A stretch of 64,000 nucleotides of DNA from Halobaculum halobium (lineage in GTDB: Archaea > Halobacteriota > Halobacteria > Halobacteriales > Haloferacaceae): positions 1,054,001 to 1,118,000 of the forward strand of contig NZ_CP126158.1 of NCBI RefSeq assembly GCF_030127145.1, read 5' to 3'. Position numbers and translations under genes: made by a program. This document shows, piece after piece, positions 17,269-58,305 of this stretch (its first letter is position 1; each line of letters starts with the position of its first letter). The notes below the pieces were generated by a model. That model was not told the origin of the DNA. It worked only from the letters and a program-made list of their open reading frames with translations, and searched no databases.

Positions 17269-18906
17269 ATGGGTAAGTGGCGACGACGGACCGCGGCGTA
17301 CCTGCTCGCCATCACGGTCGTCGTCCTGCTGTTCGCGGTCGCGTACGACTACGGGATGCGAACGTTCGAGGGGAGCGAGCGGTCGTTCATCCACCACCTC
17401 CGGGTGGTCATCGAGACGTTCACGACGACCGGCTACGGCTCGGACGCGCCGTGGGAGACCGACGTGATGAACGCCTTCGTCATCGTCATGGACATCACCG
17501 GAGTCGTCCTGATTTTCATGGCGCTGCCGGCGTTCGTCTTCCCGCTGTTCGAGGAGACGCTGTCGACGACGACGCCGACCGCCGTCGACGACCTCGCCGG
17601 CCACGTCGTCGTCTGCGGTCACACGTCGAGAGGTCGCGTGCTCCGCGACGAACTCGCCGCACGCGACGTGCCGCACCTGTTCGTCGTCGCCGACGAGAAC
17701 GAGGCGGCGACCGTTTACGACGGCGGCGAGGAACGGGTGATCCACGGCGACCCCGAGGCGGTCGAGACGATGCGTGCAGCGAACGTCGATTCCGCCCGGG
17801 CGCTCGTCGCCGACGCCGACGACGAGACGAACGCGAGCATCGTCCTCTCGGCGCGGGAGGTGTGCGACGACGCCACCGACCTCCGGGTCGTCAGCTTCGT
17901 CGAGAACGAGGCCGTTGCGGACTATCACCGCTACGCCGGCGCCGATCGCGTGCTGTCACCGCGGCGGCTACTCGGGGAGAGCCTCGGGTCGAAGGCGACC
18001 GCGAGCGTCGCCGACGAACTGGGCGACGGCGTCGAGATCGGTGAGGACTTCCAGATCGCCGAGCTGCTCGTCCACCACGGCAGCCCGCTGGTCGGCGAGA
18101 CGATCGCCGAGTCGCGGATCGCCGAACAGACCGGTGCGAACGTCCTCGGCGCGTGGGACGACGGCGAGTTCGAGTCGCCGCCGCGTCCCGGCCGCGTCAT
18201 CGACGAACACACCGTGTTGCTCGTCGTCGGGACGGAGTCCGAACTGGAGGCGCTAAAGGACCTCACCCTCTCTGAGACGCGGCGCCGCCGCCGCGGCTCG
18301 GTCGTCGTCGCGGGGTACGGGATGGTTGGCCACAGCGCCGCCGCGGAGGTGCGCCCCAGCGAGGACGTGGTGGTCGTCGACGAGCGCGACGCGCCGGGCG
18401 TCGACGTGGTCGGGGACGCCACCGACCGCGAGACGCTGGAGGCGGCCGGCGTCGACGAGGCGCGGGCGGTGGTGATCGCGCTCGACTCCGACACGACGAC
18501 CATCTTCGCCGCGCTCGCCGTGAAGCAGGTCGCGCCCCACGCCGAGGTGATCGCCCGGGCGAACGACGCCGAGTCGGTCCCGAAGCTGTACCGCGCCGGC
18601 GCCGACTACGTGCTCTCGCTGTCGACCGTCTCGGGCCGCCTGCTCGCGTCGCACCTGCTCGACGAGGAGGTGCTGCGTCCCGAGACCCAGGTCGACCTGG
18701 TCAAAGCCGCCGCGCCGAGGCTGGAGGGGCGGACGCTGGCGGAGGCGGACGTGCGCGCCGAGACCGGCGTCACCGTCGTCGCCGTCGAGCGGAACGGCGA
18801 GCTGATCACGAACGTCGGCCCGGACACGAAACTCGTCGACGGCGACAGGCTCGTCGTCGCCGGCACCGACGACGCCGTCAACCGGTTCAACGAGCGGTTC
18901 TGTTAG
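17269..18906 (+). CDS. Two-TM potassium channel with two RCK (TrkA-N/TrkA-C) modules
   Basis: This 545-aa protein has two membrane helices (about residues 8-28 and 66-92) flanking a pore loop whose filter reads TTTGYGSD. Two complete regulator-of-K+-conductance modules follow: a Rossmann domain starting VVVCGHTSRGRVL (about 108), a TrkA-C domain (about 240-325), a second Rossmann domain starting VVVAGYGMVGHSA (about 345), and a second TrkA-C ending VVAGTDDAVNRF. The MthK-like design implies gating by bound nucleotides or ions. Haloarchaea hold molar KCl, so K+ channels are central to osmotic balance. The filter has Ser where the canonical TVGYGD motif has Asp. A gttaaca element lies about 33 nt before the ATG. 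Confidence 0.85.
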   Translation: MGKWRRRTAAYLLAITVVVLLFAVAYDYGMRTFEGSERSFIHHLRVVIETFTTTGYGSDAPWETDVMNAFVIVMDITGVVLIFMALPAFVFPLFEETLSTTTPTAVDDLAGHVVVCGHTSRGRVLRDELAARDVPHLFVVADENEAATVYDGGEERVIHGDPEAVETMRAANVDSARALVADADDETNASIVLSAREVCDDATDLRVVSFVENEAVADYHRYAGADRVLSPRRLLGESLGSKATASVADELGDGVEIGEDFQIAELLVHHGSPLVGETIAESRIAEQTGANVLGAWDDGEFESPPRPGRVIDEHTVLLVVGTESELEALKDLTLSETRRRRRGSVVVAGYGMVGHSAAAEVRPSEDVVVVDERDAPGVDVVGDATDRETLEAAGVDEARAVVIALDSDTTTIFAALAVKQVAPHAEVIARANDAESVPKLYRAGADYVLSLSTVSGRLLASHLLDEEVLRPETQVDLVKAAAPRLEGRTLAEADVRAETGVTVVAVERNGELITNVGPDTKLVDGDRLVVAGTDDAVNRFNERFC

Positions 18907-37686: not shown

Positions 37687-37770
37687 TCGTCGTGCGATTC
37701 GGTGGGGCTCCGGGTAAGCGTTCCTCTCGCCCGGGCTGACCGCACTGCGTCTCCGTACCGCCGATCGTGG

Positions 37771-37842
37771 CCCGTCCCCGGTCCCGTCGGTCCTCGTCGG
37801 GGAACGCCCGTCCCCGGTCCCGTCAGTCCTCGTCGGGGAACG
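37771..37842. repeat. 36-bp tandem duplication at the 3' end of the DHH gene
   Basis: Two adjacent 36-bp copies (37771-37806 and 37807-37842) differ at a single base. The copy inside the DHH gene carries tca (TGA on the minus strand), which is the gene's stop codon. The outer copy carries tcg there and would read Arg. The duplication is a multiple of three, so the two copies keep the same reading frame. Confidence 0.9.
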
Positions 37843-39280
37843 CGACCGCCCGGTCGGTGGACCGACGGGGGGCCTTCGGCGCGTCCTCGAGCGTTTCGAA
37901 GAACCTGCCGGCGACCGTGTCGCGGACGATCTCCGTGAGCGACTCGGCCGAGTCGTCGCCCACGTCCGCGAGGATCCCGAGCGAGAGCTGTGCGCCAGCC
38001 ATGTCGGCGTGACCGCCGGCGGATCCCATTTGGTCGAGGGCGTCGCGCAGCGTCTCGCCGAGGTCGAGGTCCGCGCCGCGCGCGCGGCCCGAGGCGTAGA
38101 CGACGCCGTCGCGGTAGCCGTACACCAGCGTCGTGTCGACGCCCTCCATGTCGAGCAGCCGTTCGGCGGCCTGCGCGAGGGCGTCGCGGTCAGCGATCTT
38201 CCCCACGCAGGAGGCGACGACGGACCCCCGCTGTTCGCGCGCCTCGATAGCGCGGGCGAGCACGTCCAACACTCCGGGGGTGAGACTCGGCGACTCCACG
38301 CGATCGAGGACCTCCGTGTCCGCGTGCGACAGCAGCGACGCTGCGGCGTCAAAGTCCGCTTCGCTCACCTCCCGGGTGAAGTCCTTCGTGTCGATTCGAA
38401 TGCCGTACAGCAGGGCGGTCGCCACCTCCGCCCCCGGGGTCAGCCCGAAGCGGTCGAGGTACTCGACCATGAGCGTGGAGGTGGCGCCGACGTCGTCGCG
38501 CAGGTCGACGAACCTGGCGTCGATCGGCTCTCGCGGCGGGTGGTGGTCGACGACGACGACCGGCTCGACGTCGGTCGGAAGCGAGTCGTTGACGCCCGGG
38601 CGCGAGTGGTCGACGAGCGCGAAGCCCGCGAACTCCTCGCGGGGGTCGACCTCGGGGTCGAGCTGGCGCATATTGATGTTGAGGAGGTTCACGAGCGCGC
38701 GGTTCTCCTGGTGGGAGATGTCCCCGTAGTAGCAGGCCTCGGCGTCGGTGCCGGCGAACTGTGCGATCCGGACCAGCGCGACCGCCGAGGCGATGGCGTC
38801 TGGATCGGGGTTGTCGTGGGCGACGACCGCGAGTTTCCCGTCGACCGAGCGGAGGGTGCGGACCAGTTCGCGGAGTCGGTCTGCGGTCTCGCCCGTCGCC
38901 ACCTCGAGCACGCGGTCGGCAGCGACGCCGATGGGATCGATGACGCGATCGGCCAGCTCCCGGAGCGCTCGGAGGTCCGCCTCGGTCGCGTCGTCGCCCG
39001 CGTACGCGACGAGCATCGCGTGAGGAAACCGATCGCGGGCGCGATCGGCCGCAGTGAGGTTCGCCGTGGCGGACGCGCCCGCGACGACGACCAGATCGGC
39101 GTGGTCCGGGTAGTTGTCGGGATCGCGCGGGTCGGCTTCCAGCGCGGCGACGTGTTCGTCGCGCAGCGCGGAGACCCGACCGCTGTCGTCGGTGATCACG
39201 TGAAGGTCGCCAGACCGGTCGGTCAGCGACTCGACGATGTCGTTGCCGACGGTTCCGCAGCCGAGCACCAGCCGACGCAT
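37823..39280 (-). CDS. DHH/DHHA1 phosphoesterase with N-terminal Rossmann (TrkA-N-like) domain
   Basis: This 485-aa cytoplasmic protein has three parts. Residues 1-130 form a Rossmann domain beginning RRLVLGCGTVGNDIVE, as in RCK/TrkA-N domains that bind NAD or a nucleotide. Residues 145-300 form the DHH catalytic domain with VAHDNPDPDAIASA, FALVDHSRPG and VVVDHHPPRE, whose Asp and His residues bind Mn ions. Residues 355-460 are the DHHA1 substrate domain ending GSAGGHADMAGAQL. Such proteins hydrolyse small nucleotides: nano-RNA, pAp or cyclic dinucleotides. No N-terminal membrane or PAS domain is present. The CBS protein lies just downstream. The 3' end carries a 36-bp tandem duplication. Confidence 0.85.
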   Translation of the reverse strand: MRRLVLGCGTVGNDIVESLTDRSGDLHVITDDSGRVSALRDEHVAALEADPRDPDNYPDHADLVVVAGASATANLTAADRARDRFPHAMLVAYAGDDATEADLRALRELADRVIDPIGVAADRVLEVATGETADRLRELVRTLRSVDGKLAVVAHDNPDPDAIASAVALVRIAQFAGTDAEACYYGDISHQENRALVNLLNINMRQLDPEVDPREEFAGFALVDHSRPGVNDSLPTDVEPVVVVDHHPPREPIDARFVDLRDDVGATSTLMVEYLDRFGLTPGAEVATALLYGIRIDTKDFTREVSEADFDAAASLLSHADTEVLDRVESPSLTPGVLDVLARAIEAREQRGSVVASCVGKIADRDALAQAAERLLDMEGVDTTLVYGYRDGVVYASGRARGADLDLGETLRDALDQMGSAGGHADMAGAQLSLGILADVGDDSAESLTEIVRDTVAGRFFETLEDAPKAPRRSTDRAVAFPDED

Positions 39281-56092: not shown

Positions 56093-56257
56093 GGGAACGA
56101 TCGGCGACGAAGCGACACGACGACGCCACACCGACTCCCCGCGGCGGCTTCTCGCGGGAGTCCGGGTTCGGCGGTCGGTGTTCAACAGCCGAGCGTCCGC
56201 GCCCGTCCGAACCTCGTGCGGGGCTTTCGCTGTCGTGTTTGCGGTGTCGGTCAGCCC

Positions 56258-56317
56258 GTCGACCGCGGGTCCCATGTCACCACGTGCGTCGACCGCGGAT
56301 GCTATGTCACTACGTGG
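56258..56317. repeat. Two tandem 30-bp direct repeats upstream of the nitrile hydratase beta gene
   Basis: Unit 1 (56258-56287) and unit 2 (56288-56317) are identical at 25 of 30 positions. Both contain gtcgaccgcgg, then atgtcac, then acgtg. They abut without a spacer and end four to five bases before the TATA-like element. A 30-bp period is close to three helical turns, so bound proteins would face the same side. Confidence 0.8.
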
Positions 56318-56321
56318 CGAG

Positions 56322-56329
56322 AATTTATC
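56322..56329 (+). promoter_or_regulatory. TATA-like box of the nitrile hydratase beta gene
   Basis: The octamer aatttatc lies about 27 nt before the ATG at 56353, giving a leaderless-type promoter directly downstream of the 30-bp repeats. Confidence 0.6.
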
Positions 56330-56352
56330 AGCCGCGGCGATGTCGTCCGCGT

Positions 56353-57054
56353 ATGGACGGGATACACGATCTCGGCGGGATGGACTCCTTCCACGATCTC
56401 CCGCCGGACCAGCCCGACGACGCCAGCCCGTTCCACCACGAGTGGGAGGGCGTCGTCCAATCGCTGTACATCACCGGCCTCGGCTCCGACACGTTCGAAC
56501 TCGACCGCTTCCGGTACACGCTGGAGGGCGACGATCCCGAGCGTTATCTGACGGTTCCCTACTACGAGCGCTGGCTGGGCGCGATCGAGACGCTGTTCGT
56601 CGAGGCGGGCGTCGTCGACGCCGACGAGCTTCGCGAGCGGGCCGAGTCGTTCGCCGCGGGGGAGGCCGAGGTGCCCGACGAGACGGACCCCAACCGGCTC
56701 CCCGCGCTGCTTGAGGGCACCCGCGAGAAGTACCTGAGCCGACGCGGCGACGGCGACCCTGAGTTCGCCGTCGGCGACCGCGTCCACGTTCGCAAACGCC
56801 ACCCCGCGGGCCACACGCGCTGCCCGCGGTACGTCCGCGGCGCCGAGGGCGAGGTCGTCGCCGACCGCGGCGCGCACGTGTACCCCGACGAGAACGCACT
56901 CGACGGGCGGGAAGGCGCCGACGGCGAGCGCGCCGAGCAACTGTACAACGTCCGCTTCGACGCCGAGGACCTCTGGGGCGACGACTGTACCGACGCCGAC
57001 GGCCTCCACATCGAGCTGTGGGAGCCGTACTTGGTCGCGTCCGACGCCGCGTAG
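56353..57054 (+). CDS. nthB: Nitrile hydratase subunit beta
   Basis: This 233-aa subunit begins MDGIHDLGGMDSFHDLP, the hallmark N-terminus of nitrile hydratase beta. An all-helical middle region (YLTVPYYERWLGAIETLF) follows. From about residue 138 there is the SH3-like barrel (FAVGDRVHVRKRHPAGHTRC, PRYVRGAEGEVV, LHIELWEPYLV). With subunit alpha it hydrates nitriles to amides in the cytoplasm. The order beta-then-alpha is that of cobalt-type enzymes. It has a clear promoter with two 30-bp repeats. A 78-nt gap separates it from the alpha gene. No frameshift or missing segment is visible. Confidence 0.9.
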   Translation: MDGIHDLGGMDSFHDLPPDQPDDASPFHHEWEGVVQSLYITGLGSDTFELDRFRYTLEGDDPERYLTVPYYERWLGAIETLFVEAGVVDADELRERAESFAAGEAEVPDETDPNRLPALLEGTREKYLSRRGDGDPEFAVGDRVHVRKRHPAGHTRCPRYVRGAEGEVVADRGAHVYPDENALDGREGADGERAEQLYNVRFDAEDLWGDDCTDADGLHIELWEPYLVASDAA

Positions 57055-57132: not shown

Positions 57133-58305
57133 ATGACCGACGACCACAGGAGTTCCGACGGTCCGCCGTCGCACCCCGATCCCGAGCTCCGCGACGAAAT
57201 CGATCCGCAGTCCAGGGCCCGCGCGCTCCAGTCGCTGTTGACCGAGAAGGGCGTCTTGAGCACGGACGCCGTCGACGAGGTGATCGCGACCTACGAGGGC
57301 GACGTGGGGCCGATGAACGGCGCCCGGGTCGTCGCGCGGGCGTGGACCGACCCCGAGTACCGCGAGTGGCTGCTCGAGGACGGCATCGAGGCCGTCACCG
57401 AACTGGACGTCTCGGTGAACGACGAGGTGATGGAGCTTCGGGTGGTCGAGAACACCGACGAGACGCACAACGTCGTCGTCTGCACGCTCTGCTCGTGTTA
57501 CCCGTGGGCGGTGTTGGGACTGCCGCCGACGTGGTACAAGTCGCCCGCGTACCGCTCGCGCGTCGTCGACGAGCCGCGCGCGCTGCTGCGCGATGAGTTC
57601 GACACAGAACTGGACGACAGCGTCGACGTGGAGGTGTGGGACTCCAACTCCGAGGTGCGCTACATGGTGCTCCCGCAGCGACCAGAGGGGACCGAGGAAC
57701 TCAGCGAGGCCGAGCTCGCGGAGCTGGTCTCGCGCAACGCGATGATCGGCGTCGAACGCCTCGGCGACGGGGGCTCTATCGCTTCCGACGGCGGCGCGCG
57801 GGCGGCAGACGCAGCCGGGGCCCCGGACGCGAAAACGGACGCTCCGACCGCCGACATCGACACCGCTGCCAAGCCGGTCCCCCGCGCCGACGCCGACGGG
57901 CCGACGTTCGCCGAGCCGTGGATGGCGCGCTCGTTCGCGCTCGCAGTCGCGCTCACCGACGAGGACGACCCCGGCCGCACCTGGGACGACTTCCAGTCGG
58001 AATTGGTCACCGCGCTCGACGCGAACCCCGGCGCCGAGGCCGGGAGCGATGCGGACTACTACGGTGCGTGGCTGGCCGCCTTAGAGCGGTTCCTGACCGA
58101 CCGCGACCTCGTCGACGACGCGGCGTTCGTCGCCCGTACGACCGCCTTCGCGGACGGCGATCGCAGCGCCCACGAGTTCGTCGAGGGCGATCCGCACGCC
58201 CACGCCGACCGACTGCCCGAGGGCCACGCTGACGGGGCACACCACCACCACGGCGACGGAGACGGGCACAGCCACGGTCACGGCGACGGAGCCAACCACC
58301 GCTAA
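57133..58305 (+). CDS. nthA: Nitrile hydratase subunit alpha fused to an activator-like domain and a His-rich tail
   Basis: This 390-aa protein is about 180 aa longer than a normal alpha subunit. Residues 15-210 are the alpha domain. The metal site VVVCTLCSCYPW (C117, C120, C122) is the cobalt-type motif; iron-type enzymes have CSLCSC. A linker of about 45 residues follows (Ala/Asp/Gly-rich). Residues 259-350 (FAEPWMARSFALAVALTDED; YYGAWLAALERFLTDRDLV) resemble the separate activator protein (P14K/NhlE type), itself similar to the beta N-terminus. From residue 353 a tail carries many His, including AHHHHGDGDGHSHGH. The gene therefore joins the catalytic subunit, its metallochaperone and a probable metal-storage tail. 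It is co-directional with nthB, 78 nt after it; a cctaagcc element about 27 nt upstream may also promote it. Confidence 0.85.
   Translation: MTDDHRSSDGPPSHPDPELRDEIDPQSRARALQSLLTEKGVLSTDAVDEVIATYEGDVGPMNGARVVARAWTDPEYREWLLEDGIEAVTELDVSVNDEVMELRVVENTDETHNVVVCTLCSCYPWAVLGLPPTWYKSPAYRSRVVDEPRALLRDEFDTELDDSVDVEVWDSNSEVRYMVLPQRPEGTEELSEAELAELVSRNAMIGVERLGDGGSIASDGGARAADAAGAPDAKTDAPTADIDTAAKPVPRADADGPTFAEPWMARSFALAVALTDEDDPGRTWDDFQSELVTALDANPGAEAGSDADYYGAWLAALERFLTDRDLVDDAAFVARTTAFADGDRSAHEFVEGDPHAHADRLPEGHADGAHHHHGDGDGHSHGHGDGANHR

Follow-up and report, generated by a model that had tools for sequence, protein, structure and literature searches.

A probable 30-bp tandem duplication upstream of the nitrile hydratase genes of Halobaculum halobium, in a promoter with a candidate conserved cis-element

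The DNA upstream of nthB in the window (the whole stretch of 64,000 nucleotides of Halobaculum halobium DNA that was analysed; the repeat, its elements, nthB and nthA lie on its + strand) carries two abutting direct units of 30 bp, at 56257-56286 and 56287-56316, which are identical at 26 of 30 positions. Comparison with related promoters makes it probable that one tandem duplication of 30 bp produced the pair in this Halobaculum lineage, within an nthB promoter holding a conserved cis-element, CRTGYYACC. The two abutting units had been recognized in a preliminary description of this DNA, which counted 25 of 30 identities and set the start at 56258; these two figures are corrected here. The repeat is beyond chance. 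When the intergenic region of 260 nt was subjected to dinucleotide shuffling 2000 times, an abutting repeat of period 25-40 with at least 26 of 30 matches never arose (the best shuffle reached 0.73), and the number of matches to the 30-mer consensus expected in the window is 0.

The repeat ends 6 nt before a TATA-like element, ATTTATC (56323-56329). These six nucleotides form GCGAGA (56317-56322), which is BRE-like as judged from its sequence and from the alignment of orthologous promoters. The gap had earlier been put at four to five bases. ATTTATC starts 30 nt before the ATG of nthB at 56353, a distance that would fit a leaderless haloarchaeal transcript.

The promoter closest to that of the window is found in H. 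saliterrae (G004). It has one unit, CGTCGACCGCGAGCCACATGTCACCACGTG, at the equivalent place. This unit agrees at 27 of 30 positions with copy 1, the TATA-distal and ancestral-like copy of the window (56257-56286; CGTCGACCGCGGGTCCCATGTCACCACGTG), and at 23 of 30 with copy 2, the TATA-proximal one (56287-56316; CGTCGACCGCGGATGCTATGTCACTACGTG). If both copies are kept, the alignment of the two promoters has a 30-nt gap; with copy 2 removed, 110 nt align without a gap, and the score rises from 107.5 to 124. The single-copy version of the window also scores higher against G005, G006, G007 and G010. The upstream DNA of G002 (H. gomorrense) and G009 is unlike that of the window and is little informative, the scores leaning toward a single copy, and two promoters from other genera (G025 and G059, the latter with just 53 nt upstream) show no preference for the single-unit model. 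When the 150 nt upstream of nthB were scanned for abutting repeats of period 20-45, the window gave an identity of 0.87 and each of 37 other regions one of 0.67 or less (L009 having 53 nt only, and the start in L008 being possibly misplaced), so that the pair occurs in none of the 37. The single unit of H. saliterrae, the exact 30-bp step and the lack of a pair in the 37 other regions together point to a lineage-specific 30-bp tandem duplication. The preliminary description had proposed a comparison of orthologous nthB promoters for the repeat, and had placed both sites on one face of the DNA. The repeat is lacking in the orthologues, and two same-face sites are thus not a conserved regulatory design.

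At the four sites that distinguish the copies, G004 and G005 match copy 1 throughout. The four changes are therefore taken to be derived in copy 2. Four proximal against no distal substitutions give a two-sided value of 0.125 by coin-toss reasoning, which is not significant alone. With 4 of 30 positions different between the copies, the duplication is not a very recent event, and it has persisted; selection for two sites would be compatible with this. Short tandem duplications arise by replication slippage or unequal recombination. The repeat shares with other short lineage-specific tandem duplications the head-to-tail copy, the exact length step relative to a relative and the later divergence, and it shows no difference from them; it is an instance of the class. 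It would appear to be mostly a local copying accident inside a conserved promoter, and not a built-in pair of switches. The general caution is that a repeat pair seen in a single genome does not count as evidence for a paired operator before its relatives have been compared.

Duplications of this size and score are ordinary in the genome of the window. In a sample of 20 stretches of 20 kb (400 kb of the 3.46-Mb genome), TRF detected 42 arrays of period 20-80 with a score of at least 50, three of which score at least 92, the score of the nthB repeat. Two of the sampled arrays that were inspected lie in high-GC3 reading frames and others have no clear coding frame, GC3 settling the coding state for a minority of the repeats. 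The window itself holds two arrays with a score of at least 92, the nthB repeat among them. A further tandem duplication, with a unit of 36 bp (2.1 copies, 97%), lies at 37770-37843. The arrangement at nthB had been called the only one of its kind in the window; this is right for the motif, and not for tandem duplications as a class, given the 36-bp one. In the same genome, L054 carries 6.7 copies of a 23-bp unit at 17879-18032, with no clear coding frame.

Within each unit lies a 9-nt element, with the consensus CRTGYYACC as read by eye, and nthB promoters of other genera carry one such element. The distal copy, CATGTCACC (56273-56281), matches the consensus in full and is displaced 30 bp upstream. 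The proximal copy, TATGTCACT (56303-56311), occupies the orthologous position and departs from the consensus at the first and last base. Among the relatives, CATGTCACC is found in G004 and G002 and CATGCTACC in G005-G007; G009 and G025 have CGTGCCA, G302 and G332 TGTTACC, and G171 AGTTACC. The element is poorly matched in G010 and G324, and the core promoters of G002 and G009 are of a different kind. The best nine columns upstream of the core promoter are those from -21 to -13 relative to the TATA box. Their conservation was tested in sets of representatives chosen among the promoters closest to that of the window. In TATA-anchored random-shift controls, it was matched in 0, 0 and 1 of 2000 cases for sets of 10, 7 and 8 promoters, the anchors having been picked by eye. 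Anchoring at the ATG, which needs no such choice, places the best columns within -52 to -43 and the element at about -51 to -43, and the controls matching were 0, 0, 1 and 12 of 5000 in four sets. The footprint is weaker without G000 and G004, 12 of 5000 controls then reaching the observed conservation.

The surroundings have diverged. Between -110 and -67 the window cannot be aligned to G002 (0.32 identity) or to G009 (0.36), and identity at four-fold sites of nthB is 0.71-0.81 when G000 is compared with members of its genus. The block thus keeps both its sequence and its position where the flanking DNA has changed, and is read as a moderate footprint. The earlier suggestion that the unit lies where archaeal activators bind is supported to this extent: the BRE adjoins the unit, as it does known haloarchaeal activator sites, and the conserved element within the unit recurs at the same place in other genera. 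Nine more distant nthB promoters stood outside the footprint test (G249, G384, G286, G430, G331, G377, G365, G358 and G247), and in these CRTGYYACC was not seen by eye. An inverted-repeat reading of the region, CAYGT-N4-ACRTG, as would suit a dimer, was also considered. Copy 1 and G004 show the pattern, as do G005-G007 if paired changes are allowed for; it fails in G002, G009 and G010, and was dropped for that reason.

Gas-vesicle promoters of haloarchaea offer the closest described case. According to PMC4390858, the upstream activating sequence of GvpE (UASA/UASD) consists of two 8-nt parts set 4 nt apart, 20 nt in total; it adjoins the BRE, and its distance to the BRE matters. The GvpE sites and the nthB element are alike as short cis-elements directly upstream of a haloarchaeal BRE. 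They differ in that the former are two-part and have a known activator, whereas each 30-bp unit of the nthB promoter holds a single 9-nt element, and the two were compared by position, not by sequence. The 22-bp insertion at the c-vac gvpD promoter, described in the same paper, likewise alters the length of the DNA immediately preceding a haloarchaeal BRE. That insertion removed activation, whereas the nthB duplication leaves a copy of the element beside the BRE. With a copy in place, the nthB promoter is expected to keep working with little change.

If the element is used elsewhere, the sites are not apparent. A search of the rest of the genome for the motif, also put forward in the preliminary description, confined the 30-mer to the nthB promoter: with up to 3 mismatches, only the two nthB copies were found in the whole genome. 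An operator shared by a regulon was therefore rejected, as the same site was not met before other genes of the genome. The 20-mer CATGTCACCACGTGSCGAGA, with up to 3 mismatches, has nine matches in the 11 genomes of the genus. Six are at nthB promoters, two of them being the copies of the window; the other three each have 3 mismatches and are read as chance. An 8-mer combined with a TATA box gave no other site in the 464 kb of this genome that were scanned for it; the element is thus not a general promoter feature. In the genome as a whole, the combination has one further match, at C3:106287, with a different spacing. Genus-wide, it is not commoner than a reversed control, and for lack of such an excess a wider use of the element is not apparent. 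No pertinent paper on direct repeats in promoters of haloarchaea was found.

The course of events that the comparisons favour would be the following. One 30-bp tandem duplication took place in the nthB promoter of this Halobaculum lineage, and the duplicated segment included CRTGYYACC, next to the BRE on its upstream side; orthologues keep one such element at a fixed distance from the TATA box. The likeliest role of the element would be that of a site for a transcription regulator, or of an upstream aid to TFB/TBP binding. One element would have stayed in its original place beside the BRE, with the second 30 bp further out, so that the basic promoter presumably still works. All four substitutions since then have fallen in the proximal copy. 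By default, the extra copy would have little or no effect on expression.

An explanation that goes less far denies the copies and the element any regulatory role: the duplication would be neutral, and the 9-nt conservation would reflect shared descent or core-promoter context. This is possible, if somewhat doubtful. This genome has many tandem duplications, and the short motif with a TATA box does not exceed its reversed control across the genus, as such an explanation would have it; yet the conserved block keeps one position in several genera, in contrast to the unconserved DNA upstream of it, and the failure to meet a second 8-mer with TATA box in the 464 kb speaks against a general promoter feature. 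It is very unlikely that activation was weakened because the duplication put a distance between the BRE and the ancestral element. The precedent would be the 22-bp insertion at c-vac gvpD, which abolishes activation by GvpE when placed beside the BRE (PMC4390858), and the proximal copy is indeed off consensus at two positions; a near-complete copy remains, however, at the original distance from the TATA box.

More elaborate is the proposal that the two units work as a tandem operator: a dedicated activator would bind both sites on one helix face and induce nthB-nthA cooperatively and specifically in this organism. The position beside the BRE, the conserved element in each unit, the 30-bp spacing and the confinement of the 30-mer to this promoter all suit it, as does the fact that known haloarchaeal activator sites, those of GvpE, adjoin the BRE (PMC4390858, as cited above). 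Against this, the pair is absent from all 37 of the other regions upstream of nthB, 2 of 9 positions of the element have drifted in the proximal copy, no regulator is adjacent and no second target was found in the genome. A tandem operator is therefore improbable, and what leaves a paired activator possible is the position and the element inside the unit, not the pairing. A related proposal, to which we likewise give little credence, is that nthB promoters of the family, and some of those of the order, hold an undescribed activator site, CRTGYYACC, about 48 nt before the start codon, which happens to be doubled here. Were a doubled activator site true, the promoter would be a natural experiment on how a second site raises archaeal promoter output. 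The footprint upstream of the BRE, seen in several genera, would in any case be a concrete candidate site for the regulation of haloarchaeal nitrile hydratase.

The gene downstream of this promoter, nthB (56353-57054), encodes the beta subunit of nitrile hydratase (Pfam PF02211 and PF21006; NCBIfam TIGR03888 above cut-off). It is present in 8 of 11 genomes of the genus, 18 of 170 of the family and 39 of 392 sampled genomes of the order. It is flanked upstream by genes for lumazine synthase and an aminotransferase, and downstream by those for a DEAD-box archaeal helicase and an FMN oxidoreductase. The neighbours tested (these four, PurK and a PMT-family glycosyltransferase) include no regulator, in agreement with the earlier remark that a dedicated regulator is not adjacent. 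In the literature searched, no paper was found that joins 'nitrile hydratase' with 'haloarchaea' or with 'Halobaculum'.

The alpha subunit is encoded by nthA (57133-58305; PF02979, with TIGR01323 above cut-off). In its product, as in that of L035 3757-4923, the alpha subunit is fused at the C-terminus to the accessory-protein (activator) domain (PF21006, with TIGR03889 above cut-off) and ends in a His-rich tail. The activator of nitrile hydratase is as a rule encoded by a separate gene. H. saliterrae has an nthA-like frame of similar length and tail, the two features by which, rather than by domains, it was compared. Over residues 138-197 of nthA, TIGR03793, a model of NHLP leader peptides, also scores above its cut-off. 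NHLP leaders are akin to the alpha subunit of nitrile hydratase, and this match is therefore expected.

The intergenic region has further features of its own. A dispersed GC-rich intergenic element ending in GCGGGGGCTTTCGCGGTC lies between the aminotransferase gene and nthB in G002, G004, G005, G006, G007, G009 and G010, and has up to 17 matches per genome at no more than 1 mismatch. In several of these genomes its first bases read, by eye, GGGACTGAAAGGGGCC, and the element could form a fold-back structure. Just a decayed end of such an element is present in the window, at about 56216-56237. Finally, G006 (L077) and G007 (L078) have an identical 110-nt promoter and are 73% identical at four-fold sites of nthB, while G006 and G009 (L079) share 97% of these sites and have unlike promoters. 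The histories of promoter and gene disagree in these three genomes, which looks like recombination within the intergenic region.
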